64,000 nucleotides of DNA from the NCBI GenBank assembly GCA_034521495.1, contig JAXHMK010000021.1, positions 179,455 to 243,454 on the forward strand, read 5' to 3'. The notes beneath the pieces were generated by a model. That model made no database searches, had not been told where the DNA came from, and saw only the letters and a list, made by a program, of their open reading frames with translations. Position 1 is the stretch's first letter, and the number at the start of each line of letters is the position of its first letter. This DNA is from Balneolaceae bacterium (GTDB taxonomy: Bacteria; Bacteroidota; Rhodothermia; Balneolales; Balneolaceae). Positions 29,407 through 39,330 of the stretch are shown here, in pieces. Both the position numbers and the translations under genes were made by a program.

Positions 29407-30078
29407 ATGGAGTATGTAAAAACATTTAGAGAGATGCTTATCAACCCGGAAAATGTGGTGGATAGTTTTGTTCTTGAAGAGAAAACCAATTATATGCACC
29501 CGTTTTCTTATGGATTGGTTGGAGTGATAATTATAATGATTCTTTATTCACTTTTATTAGGCTACAGGACACCTATACTTGCCGATTTTGTTAGCAGGGA
29601 AATTGACCAATACCAGCAACTTACATATTGGATTCAATATGCAGATCTGAAATTATCCACCTTTTTGTTACCTCTTTTGATGTTTCTGCTTTTAATACCT
29701 TCCCTGGCGATAACGGGACTATTTTTCTTTCGTGATAACATAAGTGGTTTTTATTATAACCTGATACTGAGTTCTTATGCCGTGGGAACTTCGGTTATTG
29801 CTTTAGTAGTGTTAGTACCAATCTGGTTTATAGCACCATCAACTCTGTTCGATTCCGCTGTTACTACATATTTGCCGCTTATTTTGGTGGGAATTGTAAT
29901 ACTCAGAATTTATGAAAGATATTTTTTGATAGAAGATGTGAGAAGCTGGATTCAAATACTTTCATCGTATACACTTGGGTGTATTTTTTTTCTGGTTTTG
30001 GAGAGTTTTTCTATATCTGTTGTTGGATATTTTATTTTTGCCGTTAACCGGTTTTTAGATATTTGGATGACCATCTAA
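29407..30078 (+). CDS. Polytopic membrane protein, DUF3667/Yip1-like
   Basis: The 223-residue protein has about five hydrophobic segments (FSYGLVGVIIIMILYSLLLGY, LLPLLMFLLLIPSLAITGLFFF, ILSSYAVGTSVIALVVLVPIWFI, LPLILVGIVILRIYERYF, SYTLGCIFFLVLESFSISVVGYFIFAV). The start TFREMLINPENVVDSFVLEEKTNYMHPFSYG resembles the region of DUF3667 proteins before their membrane domain, but the zinc-binding N-terminus of that family is missing. I would not assign a function. It converges with the next gene (4-nt overlap of ends). Confidence 0.55.
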   Translation: MEYVKTFREMLINPENVVDSFVLEEKTNYMHPFSYGLVGVIIIMILYSLLLGYRTPILADFVSREIDQYQQLTYWIQYADLKLSTFLLPLLMFLLLIPSLAITGLFFFRDNISGFYYNLILSSYAVGTSVIALVVLVPIWFIAPSTLFDSAVTTYLPLILVGIVILRIYERYFLIEDVRSWIQILSSYTLGCIFFLVLESFSISVVGYFIFAVNRFLDIWMTI

Positions 30079-30911
30079 ACACGGTTTAGAATAAATCTAT
30101 TAGGGAGTGAATGGTTAAGAGCACCGATACCAAATAGTGCATAATCATAGCGTGCAGGATCTTCGGGATTTAGAATCTTTAGCGTTTCTGTAAGTTGATT
30201 GACCGTTTTCCAGTCATTGCTTTTCCGGGATACGAGACCATACTTTTTAGCCTGCCGGGATACATGAACATCATACGGAATCAACAGTTCAGACGGCTCC
30301 ATAAAATTCCAAATTCCGGCATCAACGGGGCTATTTTTTCGAATCATCCATCGTAAAAACATATACAAACGCTTGCAAGTACTCCCTTTCTCAGGATTGG
30401 AAATATGTTTCCGTGTGCGGCTGGCAAGATCATCACACCCATCAAAAAAATTATGGTGGAAAAGAGCCATTAATGGCCGGTTTTCAGCTATTGACTGATG
30501 ATAGCACTTGTTCCAAAATGATTCGAAATCATCAAAATGGGTATAGATATTTTTCAAGCCAAGAAATATTCCGTGCATATCAATTGGCTTGAAGGTGCGG
30601 TGCTTAAAGGTTTGAAGTCGTCCAAATTCAGCTTGAGAGTAGTTCATCACAAATCGAAACGGATCATGCTGCATCCGTTTTAAGAGATCTTCAACTTTTG
30701 AAATCACTATATCCCGGCGTCCCCAGGCCATTGTAGCTGCAAGAAACCCGGCGATCTCCTGGTCTTTTTTTTGATTAAAAGCGTGAATAAATTGAACCGG
30801 ATCATCGGTAATATAATCAGCTGTTTCTACTCTGTCGTTAATCTCGTCGAGATACGGTTTAATATCCCGTAGACCTTGTAGAGATCGCTGTCGTAACGGT
30901 TTAGAGTACAT
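30075..30911 (-). CDS. TIGR02757 (DUF2400) family protein
   Basis: The 278-residue protein fits TIGR02757, a family of unknown function found mostly in Bacteroidota and spirochaetes: DPVQFIHAFNQKKDQEIAGFLAATMAWGRRD, GSTCKRLYMFLRWMIRK, IPYDVHVSRQAKKYGLVSRKSNDW, DYALFGIGAL. The repeated helical pattern with an HhH-like region recalls DNA glycosylases, which fits its position next to mutY (1-nt overlap, TGATG), but that link is inference. Confidence 0.85.
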   Translation of the reverse strand: MYSKPLRQRSLQGLRDIKPYLDEINDRVETADYITDDPVQFIHAFNQKKDQEIAGFLAATMAWGRRDIVISKVEDLLKRMQHDPFRFVMNYSQAEFGRLQTFKHRTFKPIDMHGIFLGLKNIYTHFDDFESFWNKCYHQSIAENRPLMALFHHNFFDGCDDLASRTRKHISNPEKGSTCKRLYMFLRWMIRKNSPVDAGIWNFMEPSELLIPYDVHVSRQAKKYGLVSRKSNDWKTVNQLTETLKILNPEDPARYDYALFGIGALNHSLPNRFILNRV

Positions 30912-32005
30912 CAGTTATTTAAATAGTGAGAGAGGTCGTCATTGTCCAGTTTCTTCAAACCTTCAATGAGGGTTTTATTAGCTTTTGGAAAAGGGAACTG
31001 ATCAATATCATCCAAAGAAACCCATCTTATTTTTTGACTCGATTTAGGTTTTGGATCACCACTTTTAATCTGGCACCAAAAAGCATGCATCGTAATTTTA
31101 AAATGTGAATAGGCATGTTTCAGATCCTGGAATTTTGAGAAGACTTCAACCTCAATGCCCAATTCCTCTTTTAACTCGCGGGCTGTAGTTTCTTGCAGAG
31201 TTTCATCTTTTTCCTGTTTTCCACCCGGAAATTCCCACAATCCGCCAAGCATACTTTCATTGGGCCGAAGAGCGATGAGTAGTTCATTATTTTGATTGAG
31301 AATGAGTCCAACAGCTATTTGGTGATGGGGCACTTTCTTAGCAGGAGATTTATAGGGAATTACATTGGTTTGGGCACTTTTAGCAGCTATACAATCAACA
31401 GAAAGAGGACAGGCACTGCAACTCGGTTTCTGTGGTGTACATACGGTGGCTCCCAATTCCATCACAGCTTGATTGAAGTCGCCCGGATTTTCCTTTGGGA
31501 TTAGCTCATCTGCCAGTTCCTGAATCCTGTTTTTTGTAGTAGTTTTTCTGATATCATCCTGGATGCCGTAAAAACGGGAGAGGACCCGGATTACATTCCC
31601 ATCAACCACAGCATATTGTTTTTGGAAAGCGATGCTGAGCAATGCCGAAGCTGTGTAAGGACCAATTCCTTTTAGAGATGTTATTTCATCCCACGTAGAG
31701 GGAAGTTCACCGCCGAATTTATCTACAACTTCTTTTGAAGCGTGATGCAGATTCCTTCCGCGGCTGTAGTAGCCAAGGCCTTCCCAGCATTTTAAAACAT
31801 CCTGTTGATCGGCACCGGCCAGGTCATAAACTGTGGGAAATTGCTTTAGAAAACGTTTGTAATATGGAATAACCGTATCAACCCGGGTTTGCTGGAGCAT
31901 AATTTCCGAGATCCATATTTTATAGGGATCGTCGGTTTTTCGCCAGGGCAGCTCCCTTTTATTTTTTTGATACCAACCTACAATCTTGTCCGAAAAACTG
32001 CTCAC
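30911..32005 (-). CDS. mutY: Adenine DNA glycosylase MutY
   Basis: The 364-residue enzyme removes adenine opposite 8-oxoguanine. It shows WISEIMLQQTRVDTVIPYY, the helix-hairpin-helix LPSTWDEITSLKGIGPYTASALLSIAF, the catalytic Asp in VVDGNVIRVLSRFYG, and the iron-sulfur cluster ligands CTPQKPSCSACPLSVDC. A C-terminal NUDIX-like domain (NELLIALRPNESMLGGLWEFPGGKQ) recognises 8-oxoG. It starts with GTG at 32005, overlapping the upstream gene by 4 nt, and overlaps the downstream TIGR02757 gene by 1 nt, so translation is probably coupled. Confidence 0.94.
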   Translation of the reverse strand: MSSFSDKIVGWYQKNKRELPWRKTDDPYKIWISEIMLQQTRVDTVIPYYKRFLKQFPTVYDLAGADQQDVLKCWEGLGYYSRGRNLHHASKEVVDKFGGELPSTWDEITSLKGIGPYTASALLSIAFQKQYAVVDGNVIRVLSRFYGIQDDIRKTTTKNRIQELADELIPKENPGDFNQAVMELGATVCTPQKPSCSACPLSVDCIAAKSAQTNVIPYKSPAKKVPHHQIAVGLILNQNNELLIALRPNESMLGGLWEFPGGKQEKDETLQETTARELKEELGIEVEVFSKFQDLKHAYSHFKITMHAFWCQIKSGDPKPKSSQKIRWVSLDDIDQFPFPKANKTLIEGLKKLDNDDLSHYLNN

Positions 32006-33549
32006 TGTTCAAAAAGGTCTTCTTCATCTCCGGTTTGTGCTGACAGTTCAACCACCTTGATGGAATAATCCTGGGAAGAAGCTGCTCCATATTGATCTGT
32101 GGCTATTACCCGAAAGCTGTGTTCGCCAACTTGTCTGATATCAGGATTCCATGTGAATCGGCCGGTTTTTTCGTTGATCTGTGCACCATTTGGCATATCC
32201 ACTCCGAGATAGCGAATTAATGATTGGTTCATGCCATCCGGATCAACTGCCGAGATTCCCAATTCAAACTCTTCGCCAACGGGTATGGAGATGGGGCGGG
32301 AGGGAGTAAATCGTGGTGGTGAATTAAACGGCCTGAGATTGATAACAAACTGGGTACTGTCTGTTTGTCCATCAGCCAAAGAAGCAGTAATAGTAACGGA
32401 GTGTCGGCCGGTTTGAGTGGCTGATGGCTGCCAGTAAAACGTATTTCCTCGAATCTGCGCATTGTTAAACGATGCATTATAACTCAGAGAAACGTTTTCA
32501 CTTCTAATATCTCCCTCATATTCAATCGGTAATAGCAGCGGCCGTGGATATGGAAGTACTACATCTTCAATTTCACTCAGTGCAAAAGAGTTTGGGGAAA
32601 TAGAATTATTAGCCATCTCTTGTTGATCGGCTTGCTCTATAATCGGGAAAATTTTATTGTACTCAGAGATCCAGAATGTACCTTCGGTCACTGCGAAATA
32701 ATTTCCTGCCCGGTCTCCCGACTTCCAGAGATTGAAATTTCCGGCGGCATCCCCAATCCAAATATCCCCGGTAACGGTTCTTACAATTGTTCGATCCTGC
32801 CATGTTGAAATTTTATCAACAGCATTTTCTACATTTGCAACCGGGTCGGTTTGGCCATTCGAGCTGATCATGAAAATATTGCCATTATTGTCAGATCCCA
32901 TCAGTTCACCTTTCACTAAAAAAAGTTTGTCTAAATTTTTTCCAATCTGTAACTCTTCGCTCAGAGAAACTTCTCCTTCCCGAACGGTGTAGACACCGAT
33001 TATACCTTCTTGCTGGAGTACGAAAACAGTTTGTCCGCCGTCAGATACTAAATCAAGAGATGTTGTTTTATGGATTATCTCTACTTCGGAATCAACACTT
33101 TCCGGTGTTTCGAGGTTAATTCGGCCAAAACCGGAATTGCCCAGGGCTATGTACAGTTCGTTGCCGATGCGTATTGCCGAACGAGGTACATCGGGCAGAA
33201 CAGTTGAAGAGTAGACGCCCAGTACAGATGTTGGTTCAATAACAGTTAACCTGCGGGAGTCGCCATAGAGGTATGCAAAACGGATGTCGCTTTCCAGGAT
33301 GTGCCCCCGTTGCTGCATTCCGGTAGAGGAGTAGAGCCATTGCAGCGAATCACTGTAAGCACGAAAAACTACTAATCCATCACTTTCAGACAGTGCGTAA
33401 AGATGAGTTTCTGAACTTTGAAGGTTTACAATATTCGGGATTTCCATTTGCCTGCTAAGATCTTTAACGAGTTGTGCTTGAATCAAACCGCCAACAGGAA
33501 GACAGAAAAGAATAAATAGAGTGAGAATTCTTTTTAATTTTTTGTTCAT
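32002..33549 (-). CDS. Exported beta-propeller protein with cadherin-like domain
   Basis: The 515-residue protein has a signal peptide (RILTLFILFCLPVGGLIQAQ), then about 300 residues of repeating four-strand units typical of a beta-propeller (for example ETHLYALSESDGLVVFRAY, GNELYIALGNSGFGRINLE, GQTVFVLQQEGIIGVYTV). Two Ig/cadherin-like domains follow (about 330-415 and 415-505: PPRFTPSRPISIPVGEEFELGISAVDPDG, RFTWNPDIRQVGEHSFRVIATDQYG). It is likely a surface or periplasmic binding protein. It starts 4 nt after the epimerase stop and its end overlaps mutY by 4 nt; this packing with a repair gene is unexpected. Confidence 0.75.
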   Translation of the reverse strand: MNKKLKRILTLFILFCLPVGGLIQAQLVKDLSRQMEIPNIVNLQSSETHLYALSESDGLVVFRAYSDSLQWLYSSTGMQQRGHILESDIRFAYLYGDSRRLTVIEPTSVLGVYSSTVLPDVPRSAIRIGNELYIALGNSGFGRINLETPESVDSEVEIIHKTTSLDLVSDGGQTVFVLQQEGIIGVYTVREGEVSLSEELQIGKNLDKLFLVKGELMGSDNNGNIFMISSNGQTDPVANVENAVDKISTWQDRTIVRTVTGDIWIGDAAGNFNLWKSGDRAGNYFAVTEGTFWISEYNKIFPIIEQADQQEMANNSISPNSFALSEIEDVVLPYPRPLLLPIEYEGDIRSENVSLSYNASFNNAQIRGNTFYWQPSATQTGRHSVTITASLADGQTDSTQFVINLRPFNSPPRFTPSRPISIPVGEEFELGISAVDPDGMNQSLIRYLGVDMPNGAQINEKTGRFTWNPDIRQVGEHSFRVIATDQYGAASSQDYSIKVVELSAQTGDEEDLFEQ

Positions 33550-33553
33550 AATA

Positions 33554-34528
33554 TCACAGCCAATTATGTTTTTTGTACCAACGTAACGTCCTGGAAATAC
33601 CCTCTTCCAGCGAATATTGAGGTTGATAGTTGAGCTCTTTTTTTGCTTTTGAGTGGTCGCAGGTCCATTCCAATATCATTTCTTTTGCTTTTTCCCTGTT
33701 AACAACGGGATATGTACCAAAAAATGTTGCTGTTGTTTCTACAAATCCGGCAATTTTTTTTACCCACTCAGGTTTGATATGAATCGGGATATTTTTTTTG
33801 CCGAGAACTGTTTGCACAATGTTATTAATGCGATTCCAACTGGTTATCTCATCACCCGATACAAAATAAGTATGTATTCCTTCGTCATTCTGTTCGATGG
33901 ATTTTTGAATCGCCTGAATCAAATCGTGAATATAAATAATAGATAGCTTCGGTTGATCTCCATCGCCAACCATTGGTGCAACGCCCTTACTCATCATATT
34001 AAACAGGGTATAAATTTGATCTTCACGAGGCCCATATACCGCGGGAGGACGCAAAATGGTTACCGAAAGATCGGGACTGGCAATATCATGAATCATCTCC
34101 TCCATTTTTTTCTTTGAACGGCCATACATACTTACAGGCTTCAAAGGAGATTTTTCCGTCAGTGGTTTGCCATTACTTGGGCCGGCTGCGGCAAGAGAAG
34201 AGAGAATTACCATTTTCTTTACATCTGACCGGTTGGCTAAGCGAATAAGGTGTTCCGTGGCTTCCACATTCGCAAAATCGAACTCTTTTTGAGATGGAGC
34301 TTTTACAACCCCCGCAAGGTGAATAATTGTATCTACATTATTCAGGGCTTTCTCAATCGTTCGAATTGAATGAAGATCTCCATCTATTTTTTGATAGGAT
34401 TTTCCATGGAGCCATTTTTCCTTATTGCGAACAAGACATTTTATCTCATCAGCCTGATTATTATCAATCAAATAATCAACGACGTGACTTCCTATAAAAC
34501 CGGTTCCCCCGGTAACAAATACATTCAT
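33554..34528 (-). CDS. NAD-dependent epimerase/dehydratase (candidate ceramide reductase, CerR-like)
   Basis: The 324-residue extended SDR has the NAD-binding GGTGFIGSHVVDYLI, GDLHSIRTIEKALNNVDTIIHLAGVV, ATEHLIRLANRSDVKKMVILSSLAAAG and the catalytic YGRSKKKMEE (Tyr/Lys). It is transcribed away from two glycosyltransferases, a serine palmitoyltransferase and a GNAT protein. In Caulobacter an epimerase-type SDR (CerR) reduces the ketone during bacterial ceramide synthesis, so by context this may be that enzyme. This function is inference; a nucleotide-sugar epimerase is the alternative. Confidence 0.75.
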   Translation of the reverse strand: MNVFVTGGTGFIGSHVVDYLIDNNQADEIKCLVRNKEKWLHGKSYQKIDGDLHSIRTIEKALNNVDTIIHLAGVVKAPSQKEFDFANVEATEHLIRLANRSDVKKMVILSSLAAAGPSNGKPLTEKSPLKPVSMYGRSKKKMEEMIHDIASPDLSVTILRPPAVYGPREDQIYTLFNMMSKGVAPMVGDGDQPKLSIIYIHDLIQAIQKSIEQNDEGIHTYFVSGDEITSWNRINNIVQTVLGKKNIPIHIKPEWVKKIAGFVETTATFFGTYPVVNREKAKEMILEWTCDHSKAKKELNYQPQYSLEEGISRTLRWYKKHNWL

Positions 34529-34620
34529 TTAATTCGTATATTCACATGCTTTCAATTGATAATAAATTGCCATCGGCCTAAGATACAAATATGGCTATTG
34601 CATTTGAAACGATATGACGC
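34529..34620. promoter_or_regulatory. Divergent promoter region of the sphingolipid-type locus
   Basis: This 92-nt gap lies between the epimerase gene and the first glycosyltransferase gene, which are transcribed in opposite directions, so it must hold both promoters. It is AT-rich. I cannot name -10/-35 boxes with confidence. Confidence 0.5.
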
Positions 34621-35751
34621 ATGAGAGTAGCAATTTTTACAGGTAACTATAACCATATTCGTGACGGTGTTTCACTTACACTGAATCGGTTGGTTGATTT
34701 TTTACAGAAGAAAGGGGTAGAGGTACTTGTTTTTGGGCCTACTATTCCGGAACCAGAGATTAATCATGTTGGAACACTTGTCCCCGTTCCATCCATAAAA
34801 ATGCCAGGACGGCCAGAATACAGAATTACATCAGGATTCCCCAAAGATGCCAGGGAGCGTCTTGAAGCATTTAAGCCGGATCTTATTCATCTTGCCACAC
34901 CAGATATTTTGGGAATTAAAGCATTGAGATGGGCAGAAAAAAATAATGTACCAATTGTGTCATCCTATCACACGCATTTTTCAAGTTATTTGAAATACTA
35001 TAAGCTCTCTGTTTTTGTGCCTTTATTGTGGAAGTTTCTTTCCTGGTTTTATGGAAAATGCAGGCAGGTTTATGTTCCATCTGAATCGATGGCGGAAATA
35101 TTGGTCGAGAAAAATATCAAGGCGAACTTGAAAATCTGGGAACGTGGGATTAACAGCGAACTTTTTAATCCTGAAAAAAGAAGCATGGCATGGCGGCGAA
35201 AACAGGGAATACAAGATGATGAAATTGTAGTGACGTTTGTATCACGGTTGGTTTGGGAAAAGAATTTGAGAATTTTTGCAGATATTTTGAACAGTCTCAA
35301 GGATAAATATTCAAAAGTAAAAGCCATGGTAGTGGGTGATGGACCTGCCAAAGAAGAGTTGATGGATCTGCTTCCGGGCGCTATTTTTACCGGATTTTTA
35401 AAAGGAGATGAATTAGCAACGGCCTATGCATCGAGTGATATATTCTTTTTTCCCTCCGATACTGAAACGTTTGGTAATGTAACTCTTGAAGCGATGGCAA
35501 GTGGTTTGCCGTCAGTTGTGGCAAATGCTACGGGAAGTAAATCGCTTGTGGATCATGGCGAAAACGGGTTTCGCGCACCGGTTGATAAATCTGATAAATT
35601 CTTTACTTTGATCGAGAAGCTAATTGTTGATGCGAATTTACGCGAAGAAATGTCAAAGGCTTCTCTTGAAAAGTCAAAAAAATACAGCTGGGATTTGATA
35701 AACGGAAAGCTCTTGGGTTACTATAAAGAGGTTTTGGAGGCTGAAAGCTAA
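34621..35751 (+). CDS. GT4-family glycosyltransferase
   Basis: The 376-residue GT-B enzyme starts MRVAIFTGNYNHIRDGVSLTLNRLVDFL (donor and acceptor domain start), has HLATPDILGIKALRWA, and the GT4 donor-site motifs VSRLVWEKNLRIFAD, VVGDGPAKEEL and FPSDTETFGNVTLEAMASGLPSVV (E-x7-E). It resembles mannosyl- or glucosyltransferases that act on lipids. It is followed after 3 nt by a second GT4 gene and precedes the serine palmitoyltransferase gene, so it may glycosylate a sphingolipid. Confidence 0.85.
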   Translation: MRVAIFTGNYNHIRDGVSLTLNRLVDFLQKKGVEVLVFGPTIPEPEINHVGTLVPVPSIKMPGRPEYRITSGFPKDARERLEAFKPDLIHLATPDILGIKALRWAEKNNVPIVSSYHTHFSSYLKYYKLSVFVPLLWKFLSWFYGKCRQVYVPSESMAEILVEKNIKANLKIWERGINSELFNPEKRSMAWRRKQGIQDDEIVVTFVSRLVWEKNLRIFADILNSLKDKYSKVKAMVVGDGPAKEELMDLLPGAIFTGFLKGDELATAYASSDIFFFPSDTETFGNVTLEAMASGLPSVVANATGSKSLVDHGENGFRAPVDKSDKFFTLIEKLIVDANLREEMSKASLEKSKKYSWDLINGKLLGYYKEVLEAES

Positions 35752-35754
35752 AAA

Positions 35755-36879
35755 GTGCGAATACTATATATTTCACATTTACATCCTCCTAAAAACAAGC
35801 CACTGAAAAGCATCGGGGGCATGCAAAATGTGAGTATGCAATTGGTGGATTCTTTGCAGCAGCGGGATGATACAGAGGTGGATACAATTATTATGCGGAC
35901 CTCGTGGAAATTTATCCGGTTAAAAAGCTTTTTCTTTTTGTTTAGCCTGGTGTGGAGAATTCCGGCCAAAGTAAAAAAGACAAAACCGGATATAGTGCTA
36001 TTTTCATCGATGGTAACTGCCAGTATTTTACCCTTGCTGATAAGAAAACCAAAGGTACCCTATGTAACTATAAATCACGGCCAGGATGTAACGTTTCCCT
36101 CTGCCTGGTATCAGTGGTACATCACGTATGTATTTAAGCAACTTGTCGGAGTCATTTCAGTGTCATCAGCAACCAGGAACGCATGCATTGAACGGGGAAT
36201 GGAACCCGAAAAAGGTGTAACACTCCCCAATGGTTTTGATATGAAAGTAATGGATAATCTACCGGAAAAGGGAGAAGCCAGGAAATTAATTGAGAATCAA
36301 TTTAATCTGAACCTTTCAGAAAAAAAGTTACTTCTGTCGGTAGGCAGGCAGGTAAAAAGAAAGGGCTACCGATGGTTTGTAGATGAAGTTTTTGATGAAA
36401 TAAAATCCGATGCAGTATATCTGGTTGTTGGAGATGGTCCTGAACGGGAAAATATTCAGGAGGCTAAGAAGCAGTCTGATAAAAAAGAAAAAATCGTTAT
36501 TCTTGGCAAACAACCTAACAAGATATTAAACGCCTGCTATGCGGCAGCTGATCTTTTTATTATGCCAAATATTCCGGTTGAAGGAGATATGGAGGGATTT
36601 GGAATTGTGTTATTGGAAGCAAACAGAGCCGGAGTGCCAGCCATAGCATCAGACCTGGAAGGAATTAAAGATGTAATAGAAGAAGGTGTAAATGGTTATA
36701 AAATCCCACATGGAAAGCCATATCTTTTTGCCCAAAAAATTGATTATGTTTTACAGAACGAGCTTGTTGAATTATCAAAGAAGTCGAAAGATTATGTTCA
36801 AAAACATTTTAGCTGGGATACAGTTGTCGATCAGTACATCTCATTTCTAAAACAAGCAGCGAACAGAGTATCCAGTTAA
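35755..36879 (+). CDS. GT4-family glycosyltransferase (second of pair)
   Basis: The 374-residue GT-B protein starts with GTG at 35755 (VRILYISHLHPPKNKPLKSIGG). It has NHGQDVTFPSAWYQWY, VISVSSATRNACIERGMEPEKG, the donor-binding LLSVGRQVKRKGYRWF, VVGDGPERENI and EGFGIVLLEANRAGVPAIASDLEG. It belongs to GT4 but differs from its neighbour, so the two probably add successive sugars. It starts 3 nt after the previous stop. Confidence 0.85.
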   Translation: MRILYISHLHPPKNKPLKSIGGMQNVSMQLVDSLQQRDDTEVDTIIMRTSWKFIRLKSFFFLFSLVWRIPAKVKKTKPDIVLFSSMVTASILPLLIRKPKVPYVTINHGQDVTFPSAWYQWYITYVFKQLVGVISVSSATRNACIERGMEPEKGVTLPNGFDMKVMDNLPEKGEARKLIENQFNLNLSEKKLLLSVGRQVKRKGYRWFVDEVFDEIKSDAVYLVVGDGPERENIQEAKKQSDKKEKIVILGKQPNKILNACYAAADLFIMPNIPVEGDMEGFGIVLLEANRAGVPAIASDLEGIKDVIEEGVNGYKIPHGKPYLFAQKIDYVLQNELVELSKKSKDYVQKHFSWDTVVDQYISFLKQAANRVSS

Positions 36880-36948
36880 ATCTTGAAATTTGATTGAAGC
36901 GTAATACTCGGTATATTTACCTGTTTAATAAAATGCAATGAATTTATA

Positions 36949-38196
36949 ATGGGCGATATCAAAGCCGGAACCTCCTATAAAAGTGTTTTTAAGAAGGCCT
37001 ATGATTTTACAATGGCTGAGGAGATTAAAGAAAGTGGTCTGTACCCATACTTTAAGCCGTTACAAGCTACAGATGGTACAACAGTTAATATCGAAGGTAG
37101 AGATGTTATCATGGCCGGATCAAATAATTATCTCGGCCTGACTAACGACCCCCGAACCATTAAAGCTGCACAGGATGTTATTGAAGTTTATGGAACAGGC
37201 TGTACAGGATCCCGCTACCTGAACGGTACGTTAGATTTGCATCTTGAGCTTGAAGAAAAGCTCGCCAAGTTTATGCGTAAAGATTCCTGCGTTCTTTTTA
37301 GTACCGGGTATCAAACAAATGAAGGCTCCATTCAAACCATTGCCGATCGAAATGATGTTATCTTCTCCGACAAAGATAATCACGCATGTATTGTAGTGGG
37401 TACCCAGGTTTCCAACGCTAAAACTGTTCGATATCGCCATAATGATATGGATCATCTCCGAACCCTTATGGAGAGAGAAAATGACGCTGCCGGAAAAATA
37501 ATTGTAACGGATGGCGTATTCTCCATGTCAGGTACGCTTGCCAAAATTCCTGAATTGGTTGAACTTGCAGACGAATTTGATGCCGGTCTGTATATAGATG
37601 ATGCACATGCTATTGGTGTTGTAGGTGAAGGCGGCCGGGGATCAGCATCTGTTTTTGATTTGATGGATAAAGTGGAACTAATCAGTGGTACATTTTCAAA
37701 ATCATTTGCATCTCTTGGCGGTTTTTTAGTTGGGGACAGGGAAGTGATTGAATATATTCGTCACAAATCACCTGCACATATTTTCAGTGCAAGTATGCCG
37801 CCGGCAAACGTAGCTACCGTTTTAAAATCACTCGAAATACTCCAGGAAGAACATTGGAGACTTGAGAGGCTGGAAGAGATATCCAACTACATGAGAAAGG
37901 AGCTTAAAGCGCTCGGGTTTAACGTTTGGACCAGCCAAACTCCAATCATACCGGTTGTTATTGGTGATATGATTAGTTGTTTTGAATTTTGGAAAGATCT
38001 TTTCGAAGCTGGTGTTTATGTAAATGCTGTAGTTCCCCCCGCGGTACCCCGTGGCCAGGCTCTCGTCCGCACAAGTTATATGGCAACACATACGGACGAA
38101 CACCTTGACAGAATTCTTGAAGCATTTAGAAAAGTGGGTCTTAAGCATGGAATTATAGACGAAAACGGGCAATCACTGATTGATATCAATTCTTAA
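36949..38196 (+). CDS. spt: Serine palmitoyltransferase (alpha-oxoamine synthase family)
   Basis: The 415-residue PLP enzyme of the alpha-oxoamine synthase family condenses an amino acid with an acyl-CoA/ACP. It shows GSNNYLGLTNDPR, GTGCTGSRYLNGTLDLHLELEEKLA, VLFSTGYQTNEG, YIDDAHAIGVVGEGGRG and the PLP lysine in GTFSKSFASLGGFLVG. The family also includes glycine C-acetyltransferase and AONS. I prefer SPT, the first enzyme of sphingolipid synthesis, because the flanking genes are glycosyltransferases, a GNAT-fold protein and an SDR, while tdh, bioA, bioB and bioD are all absent. Confidence 0.8.
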   Translation: MGDIKAGTSYKSVFKKAYDFTMAEEIKESGLYPYFKPLQATDGTTVNIEGRDVIMAGSNNYLGLTNDPRTIKAAQDVIEVYGTGCTGSRYLNGTLDLHLELEEKLAKFMRKDSCVLFSTGYQTNEGSIQTIADRNDVIFSDKDNHACIVVGTQVSNAKTVRYRHNDMDHLRTLMERENDAAGKIIVTDGVFSMSGTLAKIPELVELADEFDAGLYIDDAHAIGVVGEGGRGSASVFDLMDKVELISGTFSKSFASLGGFLVGDREVIEYIRHKSPAHIFSASMPPANVATVLKSLEILQEEHWRLERLEEISNYMRKELKALGFNVWTSQTPIIPVVIGDMISCFEFWKDLFEAGVYVNAVVPPAVPRGQALVRTSYMATHTDEHLDRILEAFRKVGLKHGIIDENGQSLIDINS

Positions 38197-39330
38197 GTGA
38201 AAGAGAATCCTAATACTCACGAAATTTCCTACATAACCTCCGAAAAGGAGCGTAAAGAGTTCATCAAGTTTCCTTACCAACACTATTCTCACAATAAATA
38301 TTGGGTTGCTCCACTTTTAATGGAGCAGAAAAAACTCATCGACGAAAAGAAAAACCCATTTTATAATAATGCAGAGATTGCGCTTTTCCTGGCAAAATTG
38401 AACGGAACTATTTCGGGCCGAATAGCTGCAATTATCGATCACCGTTACAATAAATTTCATCAGGTGAAAACCGGGTTTTTTGGTTTTTTTGAATCGATTG
38501 ACAATCAAAATACGACAAATCTTCTTTTTAAAGTTGCAGAAGACTGGCTAAGAGACAAGGGCATGAAAGATGTTTTAGGCCCTTCAAATCCCGGTATGAT
38601 GGACGAGATCGGGATTTTAGTAGATGGATTTGAGAAATACCCCTCTATTCTGATGCCTTATCACAAGCCATATTACGACAAGCTGGTCAAAACTGCCGGG
38701 TATGAAAAAGAGATGGATCTGCTTACTTACCACGTTACACAAGATAATGTTGATCGGGACAGGGCTGAACGCGCAGTACAGATTGTAAAAAAACGGATTC
38801 CGGATCTTGAGATTCGAAAGATAAACATGCGAAATATCAAGGAAGAGATAAAAATTATCCGTGAAATATTTAACGAGACCTGGAAAAATAATTGGGGTTT
38901 TATACCACTCTCGCAGGAGGAATTTGATTCACTGGCCTCGGATCTCAAAACAATTGTGGATGATGATTTTGCTCATATTGCAGAGATAGGTGGAAAACCG
39001 ATTGGCTTCTCAATTGCTTTACCGGATTACAATCAGATTTTTCGAAATATGAACGGGCGACTTTTCCCCTTTGGTATTTTTAAAATTCTTTGGAATAGGC
39101 GAAAGATTGATAAAGTCCGAACTGCATTGATGGGGGTACTTCCTGAATATCAGGGTAAAGGAATTGATGTATTGATGCACCGGGAAGCCATACAAAACGG
39201 CCTGAAAAAAGGTGTTGATTCGTCTGAAGTTGGCTGGATTCTGGAAAATAATATCCAGATGATACGAGTTGCCGAACGTCTTGGTGGCAAGCTGGACAAA
39301 CGTTACCGTATGTACGGTAAGAAGCTATAG
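38197..39330 (+). CDS. GNAT-like N-acyltransferase (candidate bacterial ceramide synthase)
   Basis: The 377-residue protein begins with a GTG directly after the spt stop codon. The segment NKYWVAPLLMEQKKLIDEKKNPFYNNAEIALFLAKLNG is typical of the large family of GNAT-like proteins of about 380 residues. A GNAT fold follows (NETWKNNWGFIPLSQEEFDSLASDL, HIAEIGGKPIGFSIALPDYNQIF, RTALMGVLPEYQGKGIDVLMHREAI, EVGWILENNIQMIRVAERLGG). In Caulobacter the ceramide synthase bCerS is an acyl-CoA N-acyltransferase in a similar neighbourhood. Fusion-like coupling with spt suggests it acylates the SPT product. Inference. Confidence 0.75.
   Translation: MKENPNTHEISYITSEKERKEFIKFPYQHYSHNKYWVAPLLMEQKKLIDEKKNPFYNNAEIALFLAKLNGTISGRIAAIIDHRYNKFHQVKTGFFGFFESIDNQNTTNLLFKVAEDWLRDKGMKDVLGPSNPGMMDEIGILVDGFEKYPSILMPYHKPYYDKLVKTAGYEKEMDLLTYHVTQDNVDRDRAERAVQIVKKRIPDLEIRKINMRNIKEEIKIIREIFNETWKNNWGFIPLSQEEFDSLASDLKTIVDDDFAHIAEIGGKPIGFSIALPDYNQIFRNMNGRLFPFGIFKILWNRRKIDKVRTALMGVLPEYQGKGIDVLMHREAIQNGLKKGVDSSEVGWILENNIQMIRVAERLGGKLDKRYRMYGKKL

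Follow-up and report, generated by a model that had tools for sequence, protein, structure and literature searches.

A gene cluster kept throughout Balneolales that probably directs the synthesis of glycosylated dihydroceramide

In bacterial dihydroceramide synthesis, yghO (ECD_02850) of E. coli and CC_1154 of Caulobacter have been given together as the gene for the acyl-CoA N-acyltransferase (aca; PMC9386255). Even for Caulobacter it is disputed whether acylation or reduction comes first (PMC11087976; PMC11324152). Two GT4-family enzymes of Caulobacter, Sgt1 and Sgt2, are proposed to act sequentially on ceramide (PMC6445935), and in Bacteroides fragilis BF9343_3149 is a GT4 alpha-galactosylceramide synthase (PMC9692976).

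Here we analysed a 64,000-nucleotide stretch of DNA (hereafter the window) from the 4.57 Mb genome of a Balneolaceae bacterium. Five adjacent genes in the window probably direct the synthesis of a glycosylated dihydroceramide that carries one or two retaining glycosylations. An earlier note on this DNA had described the five-gene locus by family, with an epimerase-type short-chain dehydrogenase/reductase (SDR) among its products, and called it divergently controlled. All five open reading frames were recovered at the same coordinates (span 33554-39330) with agreeing Pfam families; of the putative divergent control, the divergent arrangement of the genes was borne out. The features are as follows:

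33554..34528, minus strand, 324 aa: SDR, CerR-like candidate ceramide / 3-oxosphinganine reductase (Pfam Epimerase)
34529..34620, no strand: 92 bp separating the divergent SDR and GT1 genes, a putative promoter region read from the sequence
34621..35751, plus strand, 376 aa: GT1, retaining glycosyltransferase of GT4 type, candidate for the first glycosylation of ceramide (Pfam GT4 domains)
35755..36879, plus strand, 374 aa: GT2, second GT4-type glycosyltransferase, candidate for head-group sugar extension (Pfam)
36949..38196, plus strand, 415 aa: alpha-oxoamine synthase, read as serine palmitoyltransferase (SPT; Pfam Aminotran_1_2)
38197..39330, plus strand, 377 aa: tandem-GNAT N-acyltransferase, candidate member of the bCerS / YghO family (Pfam Acetyltransf_1)

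The cluster is compact. SDR and GT1 lie 92 bp apart, the gaps along GT1-GT2-SPT-GNAT are 3, 69 and 0 bp, and the GNAT gene begins with GTG directly after the TAA stop codon of the synthase. The same order, with SDR divergent to GT1(-GT2)-SPT-GNAT, was found at 20 of 20 Balneolales loci in one set and at all 12 named loci in another. Together the two sets represent 29 distinct genomes, with three pairs of apparently identical contigs (L128/L069, L132/L072 and L137/L085). Since the order recurs in all those loci, the arrangement is not a product of chance. The nearest named relative found is Rhodohalobacter sulfatireducens, whose GNAT protein shares 88% identity, followed by Balneolaceae metagenome-assembled genomes.

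On the other side of the SDR gene (30075-33549) follow, with overlaps or tiny gaps, the gene of a propeller/Ig protein that looks secreted, then mutY and a TIGR02757 gene, and this order is kept in Balneolales. The propeller protein had been suggested to be a related envelope component. Its link to the cluster is one of synteny: it follows the SDR gene in Balneolales, but the gene run continues into mutY and TIGR02757, and the propeller protein was not found near the SPT-GNAT-SDR trio in other Bacteroidota.

The best PDB match of the synthase is the Sphingobacterium SPT (3a2b/8guh; E 9e-122), and the alignment confirms that the PLP-lysine, His, Asp, His and Arg of alpha-oxoamine synthases are all present. 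The earlier note had read the enzyme as SPT, and a 38-sequence phylogeny that included SPT, KBL and AONS upholds this reading: the synthase is placed with characterised SPTs with moderate support (86/83), and not with glycine C-acetyltransferases (KBL). In the same tree the CFATs form a separate clade (100/100), and KBL and BioF sit on long branches whose exact placement is unsure. The residue at the position of SulA Lys281 is alanine in SPT and serves as a marker of SPT versus SulA/CFAT (PMC9304779); it is Ala in the window synthase (IFSASM) and Lys in the CFAT of the same genome (IFAKSL). The top-scoring NCBIfam model is the SPT equivalog NF047600, whose cut-off of 640 bits the window synthase missed with 493 bits. 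None of 41 genomes (the window's own and relatives of the order) passes this cut-off, so the model appears to be tuned to a narrower group than Balneolales SPTs and was not taken as defining. We infer that the enzyme condenses serine with an acyl thioester.

The protein encoded directly downstream has only a generic GNAT domain in Pfam and no NCBIfam model. A tblastn search with it against plasmid records retrieved E. coli YghO (36% identity over 98%) and a Sphingomonas protein, and both of these genes lie near SPT and SDR genes. The window GNAT is tied to Caulobacter CC_1154 via YghO and the published pairing (PMC9386255). In the GNAT tree, YghO and its Sphingomonas counterpart branch within the SPT-linked GNATs and share a clade with the window protein (91/81). 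Of the 225 Bacteroidota genomes with SPT in a set of 296, 219 have a close homologue (E below 1e-80), versus 3 of the 71 without SPT, as raw genome counts, kin included. For the proposal that this GNAT is the acyltransferase, YghO now supplies a homologous link to the published bCerS/CerS family, with which the tree and the co-occurrence with SPT agree. The AlphaFold2 model (mean pLDDT 91) adopts a tandem GNAT fold. In a structure-based search with the 38197-39330 protein, tandem GNATs were the best matches; N-myristoyltransferases could be aligned too, with Z about 16. This predicted fold is compatible with N-acyltransfer, but sharing a fold is no proof of function. We regard the protein as a candidate N-acyltransferase of the long-chain base, belonging to the bCerS / CerS / YghO family. 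PF04339 (FemAB-like) as the bCerS family was set aside, since it has no match in the host genome, although Caulobacter matches. In two Cloacimonadota loci (L160 and L169), a GNAT of the SPT-associated class (class A) is present and SPT is not nearby; a Black Sea study reported that bCerS is absent from the vicinity of SPT in Cloacimonadota (PMC11334938).

The protein is an extended SDR with the motifs S...YxxxK and GGTGFIG, here linked to SPT. The SDRs of the E. coli and Sphingomonas clusters score 101 and 110 bits to it, versus at most 50 bits to three other SDRs found in the host genome. Identity to proteobacterial CerR-type proteins is 23-25%, and a tree with the three paralogues as outgroup does not fix the branching. 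The SDR is likely orthologous to CerR: of the identification made in the earlier note, homology to the E. coli CerR homologue stands, while the exact relation is left unsettled by the tree. Linkage of these genes extends beyond the order. Among 68 non-Balneolales loci, chosen by GNAT similarity only and many ending at contig ends, 44 have SPT within 1 kb and 36 have the SPT-GNAT-SDR trio, in phyla that range from Ignavibacteria to Gemmatimonadota and Deltaproteobacteria. On a Rubrobacter plasmid (Actinomycetota; L231:5698-11290), SPT-GNAT-SDR is followed by a gene of the LTA-synthase family, which suggests a ceramide head-group transferase beside the trio in that lineage. CerR has been located to the periplasm (PMC11087976). 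In the window SDR no signal peptide was seen by eye and the Rossmann motif GGTGFIG begins near residue 7, so we lean towards a cytosolic pathway here.

The two GT4 genes, which the earlier note had counted as locus members, are locked to the SPT gene throughout Balneolales. GT1 is present in all 30 loci examined and GT2 in 27; there is no gene at the GT2 position in L138 and L139, and a divergent glycosyltransferase in L079. The EX7E motif is found at 282 in GT1 and at 280 in GT2. Neither protein has a close characterised relative. The nearest NCBIfam models of GT1, scoring far below cut-off, represent lipid glycosyltransferases (GlcNAc-PG and monoglucosyl-DAG synthases), and its PDB matches include PimA and BshA. 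Outside Balneolales, a GT4 profile search detected such a gene near SPT in just 1 of 70 SPT loci, which rules out the pair as a general partner of SPT. In a Gemmatimonadetes locus (L162), a GT1-like gene occurs directly after GNAT, independently of Balneolales. Ceramide would be the acceptor of the GT4 enzymes, because of the genomic linkage and the precedents of Sgt1/Sgt2 and BF9343_3149. Fodinibius belongs to the Balneolaceae. Its species show unidentified glycolipids and lipids on TLC (PMC12260241), which are compatible with glycosphingolipids without proving them.

Homology, gene order, co-occurrence, diagnostic residues and the predicted tandem-GNAT fold together support the following pathway. 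SPT would join L-serine and an acyl thioester, probably acyl-CoA, to form 3-oxosphinganine; the GNAT protein would acylate the amino group with a second fatty acyl chain; and reduction of the 3-oxo group by the SDR would give dihydroceramide. GT1, as a retaining enzyme, would then attach a first sugar taken from a nucleotide sugar, and in most species GT2 would add a second one. We infer each enzymatic step, the acceptor of the glycosyltransferases, the sugars and the arrival of the lipid in the envelope. Inside the cluster there is no room for an acyl carrier protein gene (gaps 0-92 bp), in line with the use of acyl-CoA by Bacteroidota SPTs (PMC11324152). The ceramide part corresponds to the known bacterial pathway, and the two order-wide glycosyltransferase genes of the cluster appear to be undescribed.

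Other assignments of individual genes were weighed. It is highly improbable that the synthase is an alpha-oxoamine synthase of the cysteate (sulfonolipid) or glycine/alanine type rather than SPT. All alpha-oxoamine synthases are homologous to one another, Balneolaceae also carry a CFAT, and the window enzyme falls below the NCBIfam SPT cut-off, yet it clusters with SPTs away from CFAT and has alanine where CFAT and SulA have lysine. The host genome also encodes three further alpha-oxoamine synthases, all on other contigs: a KBL (702.7 bits versus a curated cut-off of 493), a BioF-like protein (413.5 bits, just below the cut-off of 426.45) and a CFAT, which among PDB entries matches the cysteate fatty acyltransferase 28eh best. 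A KBL, AONS or CFAT identity was rejected on the tree, the diagnostic alanine and these separate paralogues. The SDR could instead be a nucleotide-sugar epimerase feeding the GT4 enzymes, with ceramide reduction left to a classical SDR that is not linked to the cluster; BT_0972 of Bacteroides is an example of a different SDR able to reduce 3-oxosphinganine (PMC9278070). Its best NCBIfam model is indeed the sugar-epimerase-like HpnA (121 bits versus a cut-off of 368), but HpnA is also the best match of the E. coli cluster SDR, a published reductase candidate that scores higher to the window SDR than to the paralogues of the latter. With the same SDR type adjoining SPT and GNAT in many phyla without GT4, we think an epimerase role quite unlikely.

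A further reading has the cluster producing dihydroceramide while the GT4 enzymes, merely co-transcribed, glycosylate another lipid (diacylglycerol, lipid A or a polyprenyl carrier). The acceptors of the nearest NCBIfam models of GT1 are phosphatidylglycerol or diacylglycerol, and nearly all other SPT loci are devoid of GT4 genes. Against this, GT1 is kept between SDR and SPT in every Balneolales locus examined, in several families, while GT2 and the downstream genes vary, and the GT1-like neighbour in L162 is independent. We therefore consider glycosylation of another lipid unlikely, and favour a glycosylated dihydroceramide as the product.

The host CFAT gene (G000:C11:52046-53272; L003:1435-2664) encodes the diagnostic lysine, and the host is therefore predicted to make sulfonolipids as well as sphingolipids. 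Where a genome has CFAT but no SPT, its GNAT is of a more distant class (class B), with some match in 60 of 62 such genomes (E 1e-3 or better). In 49 of 72 Flavobacteriaceae genera the class-B gene adjoins the CFAT gene convergently, at a gap of 15-584 bp, the arrangement also seen at L108:7931-10367; a convergent pair conserved in a single family carries less weight than an operon would. A 2026 paper gives CapABC as the only genes for capnine lipids, and our literature search found no paper assigning a sulfonolipid N-acyltransferase. Given this and its position beside CFAT, class B is a candidate for sulfonolipid N-acylation. The class may not be restricted to sulfonolipids, because one genome with a Sphingobacterium-type SPT (G261; L124 / L125) lacks class A and has class B only, a possible ceramide synthase swap. 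In the tree, the host class-B protein falls in a second class-B branch, apart from the Flavobacteriaceae CFAT neighbours, and the sulfonolipid reading is thus weaker for the window's genome. We see the case as evenly balanced for a two-branched GNAT family, with class A accompanying SPT in ceramide synthesis and class B accompanying CFAT in sulfonolipid N-acylation, and for Balneolaceae, which have the first enzymes of both routes, making glycosphingolipids as well as sulfonolipids. A class-B GNAT gene and its neighbour are duplicated near-identically in the host genome (L208:2170-3997 and L209:9001-10809; G000 C18 and C21), with one copy frameshifted; the duplication could be real or an assembly artefact near contig ends.

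If the proposed pathway is true, glycosphingolipid production from a single compact cluster is predicted for the whole order Balneolales, and five genes are ready for expression in E. coli with a defined lipid to seek. The wide SPT-GNAT-SDR linkage would offer a sequence handle on bacterial ceramide synthases outside Proteobacteria, and the CFAT-adjacent GNAT class a testable candidate for the missing sulfonolipid acylation step.

Compared with known systems, the window cluster resembles both the ceramide genes of Caulobacter crescentus (spt CC_1162, cerR CC_1164 and cerS/bCerS CC_1154) and the E. coli BL21-type cluster (spt-acpR-epi-aasR-yghO) in that genes for SPT, an epimerase-type SDR and a GNAT-type N-acyltransferase, of the same families, are clustered. 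Unlike these two systems, it lacks acpR and aasR, has two GT4 genes between SDR and SPT, and encodes an SPT of the Bacteroidota type. The closest solved enzyme is the Sphingobacterium SPT (3a2b, 8guh), of the same fold family and with the same catalytic residues; this SPT type groups with that of G261, whose genome is without a class-A GNAT. GT1 and GT2 are likened by description to Sgt1 and Sgt2 of Caulobacter, likewise two GT4 enzymes, whose gene numbers (ccna_00792/00793) are distant from that of spt (ccna_01220), whereas the window glycosyltransferase genes lie inside the SPT cluster. Also by description, BF9343_3149 of Bacteroides fragilis offers a likeness within the Bacteroidota, likewise of GT4 type but a single enzyme where the window encodes two.
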